This document shows positions 2,574 to 40,760 of a DNA stretch of 46,753 nt, in pieces; the stretch's first letter is position 1; each line of letters begins with the position of its first letter. Made by a program: the position numbers and the translations under genes. The notes under the pieces were generated by a model. That model saw nothing but the letters and a program-made list of their open reading frames with translations. It was not told the origin of the DNA and made no database searches. Source of the DNA: Mycobacterium sp. Lineage in GTDB: Bacteria > Actinomycetota > Actinomycetes > Mycobacteriales > Mycobacteriaceae. The stretch covers positions 1 through 46,753 of the forward strand of contig RXJD01000048.1 of assembly GCA_003987775.1 (NCBI GenBank), written 5' to 3'.

Positions 2574-2629
2574 CGAGTGTGGAACGTGCGACGCTCCGTC
2601 GGCGTTTCGCGTCGTGGAATTCACAGTCG
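2574..2629. repeat. 56-nt palindromic element, family A, copy 1
   Basis: Two 21-nt arms (2574-2594 and 2609-2629) around a 14-nt loop. The left arm begins CGAGTGTG; the right arm begins GCGTCGTG and has ATTCACAGTCG at its end. Arm pairing is imperfect in the middle. Size and geometry are identical to the copies at 3614 and 3728. It lies between fadA6 and the following DUF559-type gene. Confidence 0.7.
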
Positions 2630-2685
2630 GCGATGGTTGGGGATGGGCGACGGCGGTCAACGCGCCCGGCTGACAGCATGCCCGG

Positions 2686-3546
2686 ATGGACTGGCCGTTT
2701 CTGGGCGCCGAAGCCCTGGCCGGCAAGGCGATCAGCGAGCGCGCACTGCGTTGTCTTTACGAGTCCGTTTATCCGGGGGTGTACGGCCCGGCCGGTATTG
2801 AGCTGACGGCAGGCCAGCGCGCACGAGCCGCGTGGTTGTGGTCGCGCCGACGAGGCGTGGTCGCCGGCAACTCGGCCGCGGCGCTGCTGGGCGCCAAGTG
2901 GGTCAGCCCGGCGCTCGACGCGGAACTGGTGCACGACAATCGAAAACCCCCGGCGCGCATCGTCGTTCATACCGACAGTTTGGCGCCGCACGAGGTACTG
3001 ATGGTCGACGGGATCACGGTCACCACTCCGGCGCGCACGGCATTCGATATCGGCCGGCGAACCGCTGACCGCTTACATGCCGTACAGCGCCTCGACGCTT
3101 TGGTGAACGCCACCGATCTCAAGTTCGCTGAGGTCGAGGCCGTCGTTGCCGGACATCGCGGTGCGCGCGGGTTGGTCCGGCTTCGCCGCATATTGCCGTT
3201 GGTCGACGGAGGGGCGGAGTCACCGCAAGAGACGCGGACCCGATTGGTGTTGATCGACGCGGGGCTACCGAAACCACGGACACAGATTCGGGTGCATGGG
3301 GAATACGGGGACTTCGTGGCCCGCATCGACATGGGCTACGAGGAGCTGCGCGTTGGCGTCGAATACGACGGCCCGCAGCACTGGACGGATCCGGAACAAC
3401 GTGCGCGCGATATCGACCGGCACGCCGCACTGATGGACCTGGGGTGGACAATCGTCAGGGTCAGCAACGACCTGCTCCGCTACCGGGAGGCAACGTTCAT
3501 TGCTCGAGTTGTCGCGGCCATGCAGGCGGCCGGATGGCGCTGGTGA
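2686..3546 (+). CDS. DUF559/AbiEi-type protein with Vsr-like nuclease domain, paralog 1
   Basis: 286 residues; position corresponds to Rv3555c of Mtb (between fadA6 and fdxB), which is uncharacterised. The N-terminal part (about 1-90) resembles the winged-helix segment of AbiEi-like proteins. The C-terminal part (about 180-280) has the conserved pattern SPQETRTR, RIDMGYEELRVGVEYDGPQH and LGWTIVRVS, which fits a PD-(D/E)XK fold (Glu, then Asp, then Glu-x-Asp). The window holds two more paralogs, at 19530 and 39790. The gene is bracketed by family A palindromes (one 5', two 3') and converges on fdxB. Activity and role are unknown; a nuclease or TA-related role is inferred from the fold only. 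Confidence 0.82.
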   Translation: MDWPFLGAEALAGKAISERALRCLYESVYPGVYGPAGIELTAGQRARAAWLWSRRRGVVAGNSAAALLGAKWVSPALDAELVHDNRKPPARIVVHTDSLAPHEVLMVDGITVTTPARTAFDIGRRTADRLHAVQRLDALVNATDLKFAEVEAVVAGHRGARGLVRLRRILPLVDGGAESPQETRTRLVLIDAGLPKPRTQIRVHGEYGDFVARIDMGYEELRVGVEYDGPQHWTDPEQRARDIDRHAALMDLGWTIVRVSNDLLRYREATFIARVVAAMQAAGWRW

Positions 3547-3613
3547 CCCTGGACCCCGCGAGGCGGGCGGTCCGGGACTCCGGGACTCCGCGGGGCCGGG
3601 GCATGGGACGTCG

Positions 3614-3669
3614 CGAACGTGAACCTCACGTCGCCGAATCGGCGTGTCGCGTCGTGAGATTCACACTCG
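3614..3669. repeat. 56-nt palindromic element, family A, copy 2
   Basis: Arms 3614-3634 and 3649-3669 with a 14-nt loop. The right arm is identical to that of copy 3 (GCGTCGTGAGATTCACACTC plus G). The left arm begins CGAACGTGAACCTCACG, with a few mismatches to perfect pairing. Confidence 0.75.
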
Positions 3670-3727
3670 GCGAAGGGAAGCGGGGTGTGAGAGTCGCCAG
3701 GATGGCTAATGGCGCTGGGTATTACCG

Positions 3728-3783
3728 CGAGTGGGAATCTCACGACGCTCCGCCGGCGTGTCGCGTCGTGAGATTCACACTCG
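3728..3783. repeat. 56-nt palindromic element, family A, copy 3
   Basis: Arms 3728-3748 and 3763-3783 pair at 20 of 21 positions around a 14-nt loop. The ends read CGAGTGGG and CACACTCG. This is the best-preserved hairpin of the family, and it lies between two convergent genes. It could terminate transcription from either side, although no U-tract follows. Confidence 0.8.
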
Positions 3784-19400: not shown

Positions 19401-19418
19401 GCCTTGTTGCCATGGCGC

Positions 19419-19444
19419 CGAGTGTGCGGCTGGCCGCACACTCG
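19419..19444. repeat. 26-nt palindrome, family B, copy 1
   Basis: Perfect 12-nt arms CGAGTGTGCGGC and its complement around the dinucleotide TG. It lies 19 nt after the ltp2 stop. The ends are the same as in the 56-nt family A elements. Confidence 0.85.
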
Positions 19445-19450
19445 ATTGCG

Positions 19451-19473
19451 GAGGTGCGGCGAGCCGCACACTC
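19451..19473. repeat. Family B palindrome, copy 2 (shortened)
   Basis: GAGGTGCGGC, loop GA, then GCCGCACACTC. Same core and right end as copy 1, with the left arm one base short. Followed by GGC as in other copies. Confidence 0.65.
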
Positions 19474-19529
19474 GGCGGGGTGTAGACAGTTGAAGTGACC
19501 GCCGCGGCCCTGCGTGCGAGGCTGCCACC

Positions 19530-20375
19530 GTGCGTGAGCCGTTCATTGGTAGCGAGGCCCTCGCTACGGGAGTCCTGACCAAGTCTGAACTGTCTACCCG
19601 CTGTCGCCGCCTGTTTCCAGACGTCTATGTGGGGCGGAATGCGGCGGTTACCGCCTCGTCACGAGCCGAGGCCGGGTGGCTGTGGACGGGTCGCTGTGGA
19701 GTGCTCGCGGGATACTCGGCGGCGGTGCTGCACGGCAGCCGATGGGTCGACGATGGTCAGGCAGTGGAATTGCTGCACGGTAATCGTCGGTGCCCACCCG
19801 GGATCCGTGTGCACCGCGACCGCATAGATGAAGACGAGATCCAGCTGATCGACGGCATGGTTGTCACCTCCCCGGGAAGGACTGCCTTGGATCTCGGCTG
19901 CTGGTATCCAACGACGAGAGCGGTAGCGGCCATTGACGCGCTGGCTCGGGCGACCGACATCAAGGCGGCGGACGTAGAGCTGTTGTCGCGTCGATACAGT
20001 GGAAGACGAGGCATCGTGCGTGCGCGTCGGGCAATCGACTTGTTCGATGCCGGTGCGCAATCTCCGAAGGAGTCCTGGCTGCGGGTGCTGCTTGTGCAAG
20101 CCGGCTTTTCCAGGCCGCAGACCCAAATTCCGGTGAGCGACGAGTTTGGCGACGTTTTTGCGTATCTCGACATGGGCTGGCCCGACTTGAAAGTCGCAGT
20201 TGAGTACGACGGTGAGCAGCACAGAACCGATCAGCGGCAGTACAAATGGGACAGCCGGCGGCGGGAAATGCTCGAGCGTCTTGGCTGGACTGTGATTCGA
20301 GTGCTGGCCGGCGACAAGTCCGCCGACATTATCAGTCGTGTTCGCTCAGCATTGGGGAGCCGAATGTGCTGCTAG
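19530..20375 (+). CDS. DUF559/AbiEi-type protein with Vsr-like nuclease domain, paralog 2
   Basis: 281 residues, same architecture as the proteins at 2686 and 39790. The N-terminus is EPFIGSEALATGVLTKSEL. The C-terminal nuclease-like block has SPKESWLRVLLVQAG, YLDMGWPDLKVAVEYDGEQH and RLGWTVIRV. The candidate metal-binding residues (Asp in DMGW; Glu-x-Asp in EYDG) are intact. The GTG start at 19530 is the first start giving the family N-terminus. The gene's own stop codon (Cys-Cys-TAG) lies inside a family B palindrome. As I recall, Mtb has no such gene between ltp2 and hsd4B; a PPE gene is there. Function unknown. Confidence 0.8.
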   Translation: MREPFIGSEALATGVLTKSELSTRCRRLFPDVYVGRNAAVTASSRAEAGWLWTGRCGVLAGYSAAVLHGSRWVDDGQAVELLHGNRRCPPGIRVHRDRIDEDEIQLIDGMVVTSPGRTALDLGCWYPTTRAVAAIDALARATDIKAADVELLSRRYSGRRGIVRARRAIDLFDAGAQSPKESWLRVLLVQAGFSRPQTQIPVSDEFGDVFAYLDMGWPDLKVAVEYDGEQHRTDQRQYKWDSRRREMLERLGWTVIRVLAGDKSADIISRVRSALGSRMCC

Positions 20376-20386
20376 CCGCACACCGG
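20361..20386. repeat. Family B palindrome, copy 3 (degenerate, contains a stop codon)
   Basis: CGAATGTGCTGC, loop TA, then GCCGCACACCGG; 8 of 12 arm positions pair. The TAG ending the DUF559-type gene spans its loop. Confidence 0.55.
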
Positions 20387-20390
20387 AGGC

Positions 20391-20416
20391 CGAATGAGCG
20401 GCTGGCCGCACACTCG
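20391..20416. repeat. Family B palindrome, copy 4
   Basis: CGAATGAGCGGC, loop TG, then GCCGCACACTCG; 10 of 12 positions pair, and the right arm is identical to copy 1. It sits at the convergent junction with hsd4B. Confidence 0.75.
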
Positions 20417-20429
20417 GCGCAGGAGGGGG

Positions 20430-31956: not shown

Positions 31957-31982
31957 CGAATGTGCGGCCAGCTGCACGCTCG
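31957..31982. repeat. Family B palindrome, solo copy 5
   Basis: CGAATGTGCGGC, loop CA, then GCTGCACGCTCG; 9 of 12 arm positions pair. Lies between convergent genes with no DUF559-type gene beside it. Confidence 0.6.
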
Positions 31983-31986
31983 TGGC

Positions 31987-32012
31987 CGAATGTGCGGCCA
32001 GGTTCACACTCG
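31987..32012. repeat. Family B palindrome, solo copy 6, plus a half-copy to 32040
   Basis: CGAATGTGCGGC, loop CA, then GGTTCACACTCG: the ends pair and the centre does not. A further right-arm fragment CTGGCTTCACACTCGGC follows at 32024-32040 and overlaps the end of the NTF2-like gene. Confidence 0.6.
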
Positions 32013-39789: not shown

Positions 39790-40653
39790 TCAGGCGATTT
39801 TTCCGCCCTCCTTACACGTTCGGCGCGACCACGCCGCAGCAAGTCGGCCAAGGACGCCCCCTGGGGTGTCCTGGTTGGTGACTCGGAGGATCAGCCAGTC
39901 GAGATCGGTCGTCATTGTCTCGTAGCGGGCGACGTCCTTCGCGAACTGCGATGATGTCCGATGGTGCTCGCCCTCGTATTCGAGCGCGAGTTTGATTGCC
40001 TCCCAGCCCATGTCGACGATGCCGACGAGCTCCTGGTATCGGCCGTAGATTGGGATCTGCGTTTGCGGGGGCGGGTAGCCGGCCTGGATGACGAGCAGCC
40101 GCAGCCACGTCTCTCGTGGGGACTGTGCGCCGGGGTCGACGAGGGTAAGGGCTTTTCGGGCTTCGCGGATGTTGCGGTGGCCTTTGTGGCGGTCGAATAG
40201 AGGCTCGGCGTCAGCGGTTTGGAGCTTCGTGGCCCGCGCCAGGCCGTCAATGGCCGCGACCGCTCTATTGAGTGGGTAGCGGCAGGCGAGGTCGAATGCC
40301 GTGCGAGCTGGAGTTGTGACAGCGACGCCGGCGATCACCTGTATTTCTTCCGGCGCGACCTGATCGGACCAGGTGATGATGCCGGGCGGCGGGCGACGGT
40401 GTGCGTATAGCAACTGCGCAGGCGCTCGAGGGTCGACCCACTTTGCGCCGTGCAGTGCCGAGGCGGACTGACCGCCCACGGTGCCACGCCGTTTTGACCA
40501 GAGCCACGCTGCGTAGGCGCGTTCCTGAGCGGTCATGTCGACCTCGGGCGGCACGTAGACATCAGGGTGGAGTGCGACGAAGCGGCGGCGCAGAGCGTGG
40601 CGAGTCAGCGCGCCGGACCTGATCGCCTCGCTGCCGATGAACGGTTTCATCAT
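39790..40653 (-). CDS. DUF559/AbiEi-type protein with Vsr-like nuclease domain, paralog 3
   Basis: 287 residues; synteny matches Rv3517 of Mtb. N-terminus KPFIGSEAIRSGALTRHALRR. The nuclease-like block is SPRETWLRLLVIQAGYPPPQ, GIVDMGWEAIKLALEYEGEH and DLDWLILRV; Glu replaces the Asp of the EYDG motif seen in the other paralogs. Two adjacent ATGs (40653 or 40650) are possible starts. A 56-nt palindrome of the family A size lies 37 nt upstream. Converges on cyp142. Function unknown. Confidence 0.82.
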   Translation of the reverse strand: MMKPFIGSEAIRSGALTRHALRRRFVALHPDVYVPPEVDMTAQERAYAAWLWSKRRGTVGGQSASALHGAKWVDPRAPAQLLYAHRRPPPGIITWSDQVAPEEIQVIAGVAVTTPARTAFDLACRYPLNRAVAAIDGLARATKLQTADAEPLFDRHKGHRNIREARKALTLVDPGAQSPRETWLRLLVIQAGYPPPQTQIPIYGRYQELVGIVDMGWEAIKLALEYEGEHHRTSSQFAKDVARYETMTTDLDWLILRVTNQDTPGGVLGRLAAAWSRRTCKEGGKIA

Positions 40654-40689
40654 GGGTGGCAGTGTTCATCGGGCCACCGACAACGTCGT

Positions 40690-40745
40690 CGAACGTGCTG
40701 TGAGGGATGAGATCCGGCCGAAAACCCGCCCTCATGTCACGCTCG
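40690..40745. repeat. 56-nt palindromic element, family A, diverged copy 4
   Basis: Ends CGAACGTG (40690) and CACGCTCG (to 40745). The outer 17 nt pair at 13 of 17 positions (CGAACGTGCTGTGAGGG against CCCTCATGTCACGCTCG). The total length equals the 56 nt of copies 1-3. It lies between the DUF559-type gene and echA19. Confidence 0.6.
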
Positions 40746-40760
40746 GCGGGAACGGAGGGG

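Follow-up and report, generated by a model that had tools for sequence, protein, structure and literature searches.

The nuclease-type gene described here probably belongs to a REPtron-like mobile unit of about 1.0 kb, composed of a palindrome, the gene and a further palindrome in direct orientation, with additional palindrome copies dispersed at intergenic 3′ sites. The best reading of our data is that a sequence-specific nuclease stands in for the HUH transposase in such a system. The architecture of the units, the pairing of gene clades with palindromes, the genome-level association of the two, the presence or absence of units at matching sites and the conservation of predicted active-site residues are all established. 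The initial annotation of this locus had proposed a REP-like element with its own nuclease-type partner, and this proposal is supported inasmuch as palindromes of the family studied here (R1) are dispersed, their number follows the gene, and filled and empty units exist. More generally, the units might represent an actinobacterial class of mobile DNA in which an AbiEi-like reader joined to a DUF559/MTES_1575 nuclease copies a clade-specific palindrome of about 60 nt, and occasionally itself, with reader and palindrome changing specificity together; we regard this broader proposition as evenly balanced.

The window, that is, the whole analysed stretch of 46,753 nucleotides from a Mycobacterium genome (G000), carries the gene at 2686-3546, with a thiolase gene just before it and a convergent desaturase/ferredoxin-reductase gene after it. 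The gene, two paralogs and the associated palindromes are as follows.

2574..2629, + strand: upstream palindrome, family R1; 21-14-21, 14/21 Watson-Crick pairs; 56 nt from its end to the start codon
2686..3546, + strand: nuclease-type gene, 286 aa; AbiEi-like N part and C-terminal REase_MTES_1575/DUF559
3614..3669, + strand: downstream palindrome 1, family R1; same orientation, 17/21 pairs
3728..3783, + strand: downstream palindrome 2, family R1; same orientation, 20/21 pairs
19416..19477, + strand: upstream palindrome of the second paralog; different family from R1, CGCCGAGTGTGCGGC...GCCGCACACTCGGCG
19539..20375, + strand: second paralog, 44% identical; start codon provisional, stop codon within its own downstream palindrome
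20359..20418, + strand: downstream palindrome of the second paralog; resembles 19416-19477
31957..32012, + strand: solitary palindrome; 14/21 pairs, by eye like the second paralog's family
39871..40647, - strand: third paralog, 45% identical; weak AbiEi_1 match only
40687..40748, - strand: upstream palindrome of the third paralog; third family, 15/21 pairs in the 21-arm register

All three palindromes around the gene are 56 nt long in the 21-14-21 register, lie in one shared orientation and have almost identical right arms. The earlier description of palindromes of identical geometry bracketing the gene was thus correct. As for the layout it gave, one palindrome before the gene and two after, this is what the window contains but not what is usual, namely one per side. 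Pairing in this register reached a maximum of 16 in 300 single-base shuffles of the gene flanks; the upstream palindrome alone is inside the chance range, whereas 3614-3669 and 3728-3783 are outside it. Of these three, the repeat search at its settings reported 3728-3783 alone. The three stand above chance because of their shared sequence: the palindrome end motif, allowing up to two mismatches, occurs at 29 places genome-wide compared to 0 for the reversed control. They score 64.7, 68.1 and 76.6 bits with the R1 covariance model, all three belonging to the model's 14 source copies. Chance palindromes were rejected on the basis of the end-motif control, the flank-repeat controls and the shuffled flanks. 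The palindromes of the second paralog (19416-20418) have the look of a double hairpin with repeated CGAGTGTGCGGC-like units.

The C-terminal domain of the protein (residues 198-278) matches the Pfam family REase_MTES_1575 with 41.4 bits, above the cut-off of 38.2, and DUF559 as well. We take the MTES_1575/DUF559 family to have the PD-(D/E)XK fold. Residues 26-131 match AbiEi models (PADLOC, E 2.9e-12), with Pfam AbiEi_1 remaining under its cut-off; hits to the window protein in the defence library include these models and a defence-candidate model, PDC-S37 (E 2.5e-5). Among 38 aligned proteins, Pfam detects REase_MTES_1575 in 37, DUF559 in 27 and AbiEi_1 in 5, and no transposase families, TnpA and TnpB included. 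Positions invariant in this alignment include D215, E226, Y227, G229, H232, D242, W254 and R258; judging from the alignment, D215, E226, H232 and D242 are as expected of an active PD-(D/E)XK-type nuclease. The compatibility with such a nuclease noted at the outset is matched by an MTES_1575 profile score above its cut-off and by invariant acidic residues. We also considered TALE repeat chains, which gave a best E of 1.4e-7 with the 38-protein profile at residues ~120-171; this value sums weak hits, no stretch of which passes alone, and the candidate was rejected. The signal itself may be compositional or may reflect a similar helix-loop-helix unit. No gene for an AbiEii (DUF1814) toxin lies beside the gene at the window locus, the neighbours being the thiolase and desaturase/ferredoxin-reductase genes. 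In the third paralog, Pfam finds no nuclease family at E≤0.1. Homologs (E≤1e-10) are present in all 59 genomes sampled from the genus, at 2-17 per genome. The window's genome has nine, three of which are within the window and so share one 46.8-kb contig of a 7.29-Mb assembly.

The R1 family extends well beyond the gene. With the model built from 14 palindrome copies of the window's genome, a scan of that genome returned 87 match rows on both strands at E≤1, corresponding to 46 distinct places; at E≤1e-3 there are 43, of which three flank the gene and 40 lie elsewhere. We checked the gene context of 41 of these 43 places, the three gene flanks included, with genes predicted by a GC-position script. 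None lies inside a predicted gene, and the neighbouring genes are convergent at 24 places, tandem at 10, divergent at 5 and undetermined at 2. The convergent share, 24 of the 39 places with both neighbours, exceeds that of background gaps (16 of 45, p 0.03). In other words, the genome-wide palindrome scan suggested by the initial annotation reveals a dispersed, intergenic family in this genome. Target-site duplications of 2-9 nt at 28 places in the same genome show no clear excess over shuffled partners (at most 9 versus 6.2 expected, at 4 nt). No Rfam match was found in the 7 loci searched. In an alignment of 58 copies, R1 is 56 nt long with CGAG/CTCG ends, and palindromes of the other families are mostly similar in length.

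To relate palindrome number to the gene, we counted R1 rows at E≤1e-6 on both strands (sites being fewer) in the 59 genomes. All 14 genomes having a homolog of at least 60% identity contain at least 5 R1 rows, compared to 7 of the 45 without one. With the model's source genome excluded, the counts are 13/13 versus 7/45 (p 2.5e-8); since the genomes are related and the identity cut-offs of 60% and 64% were chosen after the lists had been seen, this and the other p-values of the comparison overstate the case. The exceptions are G040 (24 rows), G050 (10), G048 (9), G012 (7), G036 (7), G045 (6) and G029 (5). G048 has a 50% homolog at the thiolase site, and G029 has a partial 62% match that was placed in the group without the gene; moving it to the other group gives 14/14 versus 6/44. 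In G040 the best homolog is 49% identical and the gene is reduced to a C-terminal fragment at the thiolase site, yet 24 R1 rows are present; palindromes seem to outlast the gene. Where the thiolase is at least 92% identical (23 genomes), R1 counts are 5-52 in the ten with the gene at this site and 0-6 in the ten without it there, and 24, 4 and 10 in the three with gene or palindrome remnants at the thiolase site.

A second model, R2, was built from 12 palindromes of another clade in 7 genomes. At least 5 R2 rows occur in 9 of 11 genomes with a homolog of at least 64% identity (one of them truncated, in G024) and in 4 of 48 without. Seven of the 11 supplied the model, and the R2 replication is therefore weaker than R1; the four R2-gene genomes outside the model source (30, 15, 2 and 1 rows) give a Fisher p of 0.06 and a Mann-Whitney p of 5e-4. 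Across the 59 genomes, neither family correlates with the gene of the other (rho 0.07 and 0.13). The initial annotation had asked about distance to the gene; the association examined here across mycobacteria, that of palindrome number with the gene, is strong for R1 and weaker for R2, and the palindromes are not distributed independently of the gene.

Palindromes flank the gene in many loci. We collected 158 mycobacterial loci (38, a further 40 fetched and 80 named, the last from M. gordonae, M. asiaticum, M. gastri, Mycolicibacter and others), representing 149 distinct genes, 145 of them with enough flank, and took 142 control pairs from regions farther out in the same loci. A direct repeat shared by the upstream and downstream flanks scores at least 18 in 69 of the 145 loci versus 0 of the 142 control pairs, leaving 76 loci below this threshold; at a score of at least 14 the repeat is found in 92 loci, again with no control pair. 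Comparing the flanks in inverted orientation gives 53 loci at ≥18, as palindromes must. In the 69 loci the median distance from the upstream copy to the start codon is about 40 nt, and that from the stop codon to the downstream copy is 0 nt. A hairpin scoring at least 14 is present upstream in 23 of 77 and downstream in 17 of 77 loci. Across the 80 named loci, matches to R1 (E≤0.001) occupy 105 distinct places in 61 loci, 102 of them within two short windows at the gene ends; these loci were chosen by gene, so that 102/105 measures position and not genome-wide enrichment. The sole three places off the gene ends are L212:4979-5034, L216:5378-5433 and L247:1931-1986.

The arms differ among gene clades, and by eye we distinguish at least 10 arm families, many of them 56-64 nt long with CGCCGA...TCGGCG-like ends. 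As a measure of flank likeness, the upstream flank of one locus was compared with the downstream flank of another over all ordered pairs of 143 loci. The fraction of pairs reaching 18 rises with protein identity: 0/7,346 below 50%, 244/2,162 at 60-70% and 404/904 at 70-80%. It does so also for pairs at different sites, with 0/7,304 below 50%, 79/1,432 at 60-70%, 69/144 at 70-80% and 4/14 above 80%. Flank and protein likeness correlate with a Spearman coefficient of 0.295, compared to a maximum of 0.060 in 200 permutations. Gene clades are each paired with their own palindrome family, and palindrome likeness tracks the protein even across genomic sites. By protein region, the partial rho of palindrome likeness is 0.30 for residues 61-120, 0.22 for residues 1-60 and 0.13 for the nuclease part, these values referring to non-independent pairs of at least 50% protein identity; such a gradient fits a palindrome reader in the predicted N-terminal part.

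The covariation score of 58 gene-flanking R1 copies exceeds all 500 shuffles, with columns 5, 7 and 9 covarying most clearly, each above every shuffle, and the middle columns pairing weakly. The number of pairs changed on both sides, 10, was reached in 34 of the 500 shuffles. These both-side changes fit a folded hairpin and a reader tracking symmetrical duplex half-sites equally well. Across three alignments, G.T and A.C mismatches number 77 and 63, 14 and 16, and 7 and 14; being about equally common, they speak against RNA pairing on one strand as the likely driver, and with no consistent G.T excess we rejected selection at the RNA level. The sequence just outside the palindromes has a likeness of 0.26-0.40 at different sites, near background, and of 0.28-0.39 for same-site pairs; being low for the latter as well, it does not fix the palindrome ends.

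We next turn to matching sites in different genomes. The gene follows the thiolase in 11 of the 40 other genomes fetched and lies 6.6 kb away in one more, and all 11 have at least one R1 match at the site, so that, with regard to another possibility raised in the initial annotation, the gene is not fixed at this site with the palindromes absent. The comparison of filled and empty sites that it had also suggested reveals whole palindrome-gene-palindrome units of about 1.0 kb present or absent at matching positions: at least 99 locus pairs, representing far fewer sites, match in both unit flanks with less than 700 bp between them. Units of 1.03-1.05 kb lie between convergent genes in Mycolicibacter (L226, L227, L232, L233) and in M. 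talmoniae (L276, where the gene frame is short under the GC-position gene-prediction script). The same site is empty in G041 and G040, with the convergent stop codons read as abutting and no palindrome present as a target of the kind that a homing endonuclease gene would disrupt; on comparison of the loci the difference has the appearance of an insertion. Downstream of the thiolase, several species have units of about 1.01 kb where G054 and G001 have short spacers, in which apparent leftover end letters suggest loss rather than a site never filled. Gene or single-palindrome remnants after the thiolase are also seen in L170 (G040), L187 (G026) and L190 (G050), which suggests loss by deletion. 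Among the filled and empty loci compared, none provides an exact junction within one species. Overall, the gene seems to be mostly vertically inherited, as a resident enzyme.

Solitary palindromes turn over between genomes. Between the genes that flank one R1 place of the window's genome, G004 and G006 have a GAGCAGACGC-type palindrome and G060 has a third kind, while the spacers are 9 and 22 bp in G003 and G061 and 79 bp, with no palindrome by eye, in G007; in G005 a GAGCAGACGC-like palindrome lies beside the right-hand gene, with the left flank about 3.4 kb off. At the L106 site, a solitary R1 in G058 corresponds to a gene in each of G020 and G009, accompanied by palindromes of two other families (in G020 upstream only). 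Two R1 places lie on contig C70. G070 and G004 both have the first, which G071 lacks; the second is found in G070, whereas G004 has other DNA in its place and G071 is cut there by a contig end. The GAGCAGACGC-like palindrome constitutes a second widespread intergenic type, found where other genomes have R1 or nothing (L290 in G004, L293 in G005, L299 in G006, L192 in G039, L194 in G035 and L195 in G016). A similar upstream palindrome, CGAGCAGTCGC..., accompanies the paralog L038 (32% identical), a possible partner of this type.

The initial annotation called the system mycobacterial; it is indeed widespread in the genus, but it extends further, similar units occurring in other families of the order and class. 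Searches with the 38-protein profile (E≤1e-12) covered 8 genomes belonging to other families of the order and detected homologs in 6. In a raw count of the 16 loci of these families, L367, L368 and L373 have direct-repeat palindromes on both sides, L372 has a strong upstream palindrome and L369 a downstream one, most others being negative. In a sample of the phylum, 14 of 119 genomes match at E≤1e-25, four of them from this genus. Outside the genus, 19 of 20 fetched loci were testable: a direct repeat scoring at least 16 is found in 7 versus 0 of 18 controls, and a hairpin scoring at least 14 in 12 of 19 versus 0 of 19. Each of the four paralogs in G084, a genome of the same class, has a flanking repeat of its own, and three of these repeats are clearly palindromic. 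The high repeat score of L390, from another class, seems to reflect an array of repeats and not clean palindromes; outside the class, loci are mostly negative. Neither 72,556 plasmid records (E≤1e-20) nor 50,697 phage records (E≤1e-10) yielded a match for the window protein, and its carriage by plasmids or phages was rejected on these searches.

As to mechanism, the AbiEi-like N part would act as the reader of the cognate palindrome, recognising it in the form of two inverted half-sites, while cutting or nicking at or near this palindrome would fall to the DUF559/MTES_1575 nuclease domain. Repair of the break, or strand transfer, could then copy palindromes, and rarely the whole unit, into new intergenic sites. 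Two readers may face each other on the 21-24-nt arms, with a nuclease pair over the centre of ~14 nt. According to the parts of PMC7319586 considered here, the inverted repeats recognised by AbiEi antitoxins are 23 bp long and paired, with a spacing of 3 bp in one system and of 13 bp in Rv2827c, and lie within 131 bp of the start codon; the arms and centre described here are of similar geometry. We consider it the most likely mechanism, and a reasonably probable one, that the cognate palindrome is cut or nicked and that copying through repair or strand transfer follows.

The same AbiEi likeness could instead mean that the protein is an autoregulator, the upstream palindrome its operator and the dispersed copies its other sites, with the nuclease serving otherwise. 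In line with this, AbiEi antitoxins bind their own promoter at paired 23-bp inverted repeats (PMC7319586, as far as considered here), strong hairpins are slightly more frequent upstream (23/77) than downstream (17/77), and R1 columns 7 and 9, and also 5, exceed every shuffle in the manner of duplex half-sites with a changing reader. A regulon nevertheless leaves unexplained the directly oriented palindrome at the stop codon, the convergent 3′-end excess (24 of 41, against 5 divergent) and the unrelated palindromes found at a single site, and we judge it unlikely. The convergent excess (24/41; 24/39 against 16/45 background gaps, p 0.03) and the substitution of different palindromes at a single site are what one would expect if the palindromes were simply kept as transcription terminators or mRNA 3′ ends, their link to the gene being incidental. 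However, this very improbable explanation is at odds with the clade-specific palindromes, with the genome-level association with the gene and with G.T mismatches that are not consistently above A.C (77 versus 63, 14 versus 16, 7 versus 14).

It is also conceivable that only the whole unit moves, in a homing-like manner, and that solitary palindromes are recombination scars comparable to solo LTRs. The gene is flanked by direct copies, whole units are present or absent, and deletion of the core between direct palindromes is known in haloarchaeal PATEs and IS605-type elements (PMC3119063, in the parts drawn on). Yet the L106 site has a solitary R1 in one genome and, in two others, genes accompanied by palindromes from different families, and among the matches listed we noticed no site pairing a unit with a solitary palindrome of the same family; we hold this explanation to be quite unlikely. 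Finally, the matches to AbiEi models and PDC-S37 (E 2.5e-5) in the defence library might point to defence or addiction, with palindromes marking self DNA or restraining an otherwise toxic nuclease. This is highly doubtful given the neighbours of the window gene, a thiolase and a desaturase/ferredoxin-reductase with no toxin gene, and given the R1 palindromes retained by G040 with only a gene remnant at the site.

We found no description of this palindrome-nuclease pairing in the open-licence literature, and the kind of mobile DNA seems to be undescribed; its enzyme has no relation to the one known to partner palindromic repeats. Even REPs, which have HUH enzymes as their described partners, leave unanswered how repetitive palindromes spread, and a REP class (CGTC) has been reported without a dedicated enzyme in the sections of PMC3733652 considered. 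A nuclease-based system with many natural protein-palindrome pairs would, if true, be a second, independent solution. It would also provide a function for an uncharacterised many-copy gene family (2-17 homologs in each of 59 genomes), as well as a set of DNA readers matched with their target palindromes, in which changes of specificity could be studied.

The closest likeness is to REPtrons as presented in the consulted parts of PMC6006769, PMC3733652 and PMC8266576. The gene is chromosomal and flanked by palindromes of its own family (69/145 loci at the strict threshold), the family is dispersed, intergenic and mostly at convergent or tandem positions, gene and family occur together, and palindrome and protein diverge together. 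In contrast, the enzyme here is of the REase_MTES_1575/DUF559 type and that of REPtrons an HUH/Y1 tyrosine transposase (TnpAREP, RAYT). R1 is 56 nt long with 21-nt arms and no GTAG tag, whereas REPs are 20-50 nt long with a GTAG-type tag. Here the gene usually has a single palindrome upstream and another at its stop codon, whereas the layout of REPtrons varies in the accounts consulted. Having neither an HUH enzyme nor GTAG-tagged REPs, the system is not a REPtron member; among the Actinobacteridae sampled in PMC6006769, the part considered gives only subclass 1.1 (IS200-type) TnpA. IS200/IS605 elements and haloarchaeal PATEs share palindromes near both ends, end-only derivatives and the lack of target duplication (PMC3119063, as far as consulted), but no TnpA or TnpB family and no plasmid or phage match of the window protein was found here. 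The AbiE type IV toxin-antitoxin system resembles ours in the AbiEi-matching N part and in paired inverted repeats of similar length upstream (PMC7319586, in the same parts as above); our system differs in the C-terminal nuclease domain, in the lack of an adjoining AbiEii at the window locus and in palindromes that lie on both sides and are dispersed. Judged by these features, the system is neither an IS200/IS605 element nor an AbiE pair. Myt-1 and Myt-8 of M. tuberculosis are likewise dispersed structured repeats, of 72 and 92 nt, but the portion of PMC2267715 describing them gives no partner gene such as we find here. Some of the catalogued M. tuberculosis structured repeats may belong to the families described here.
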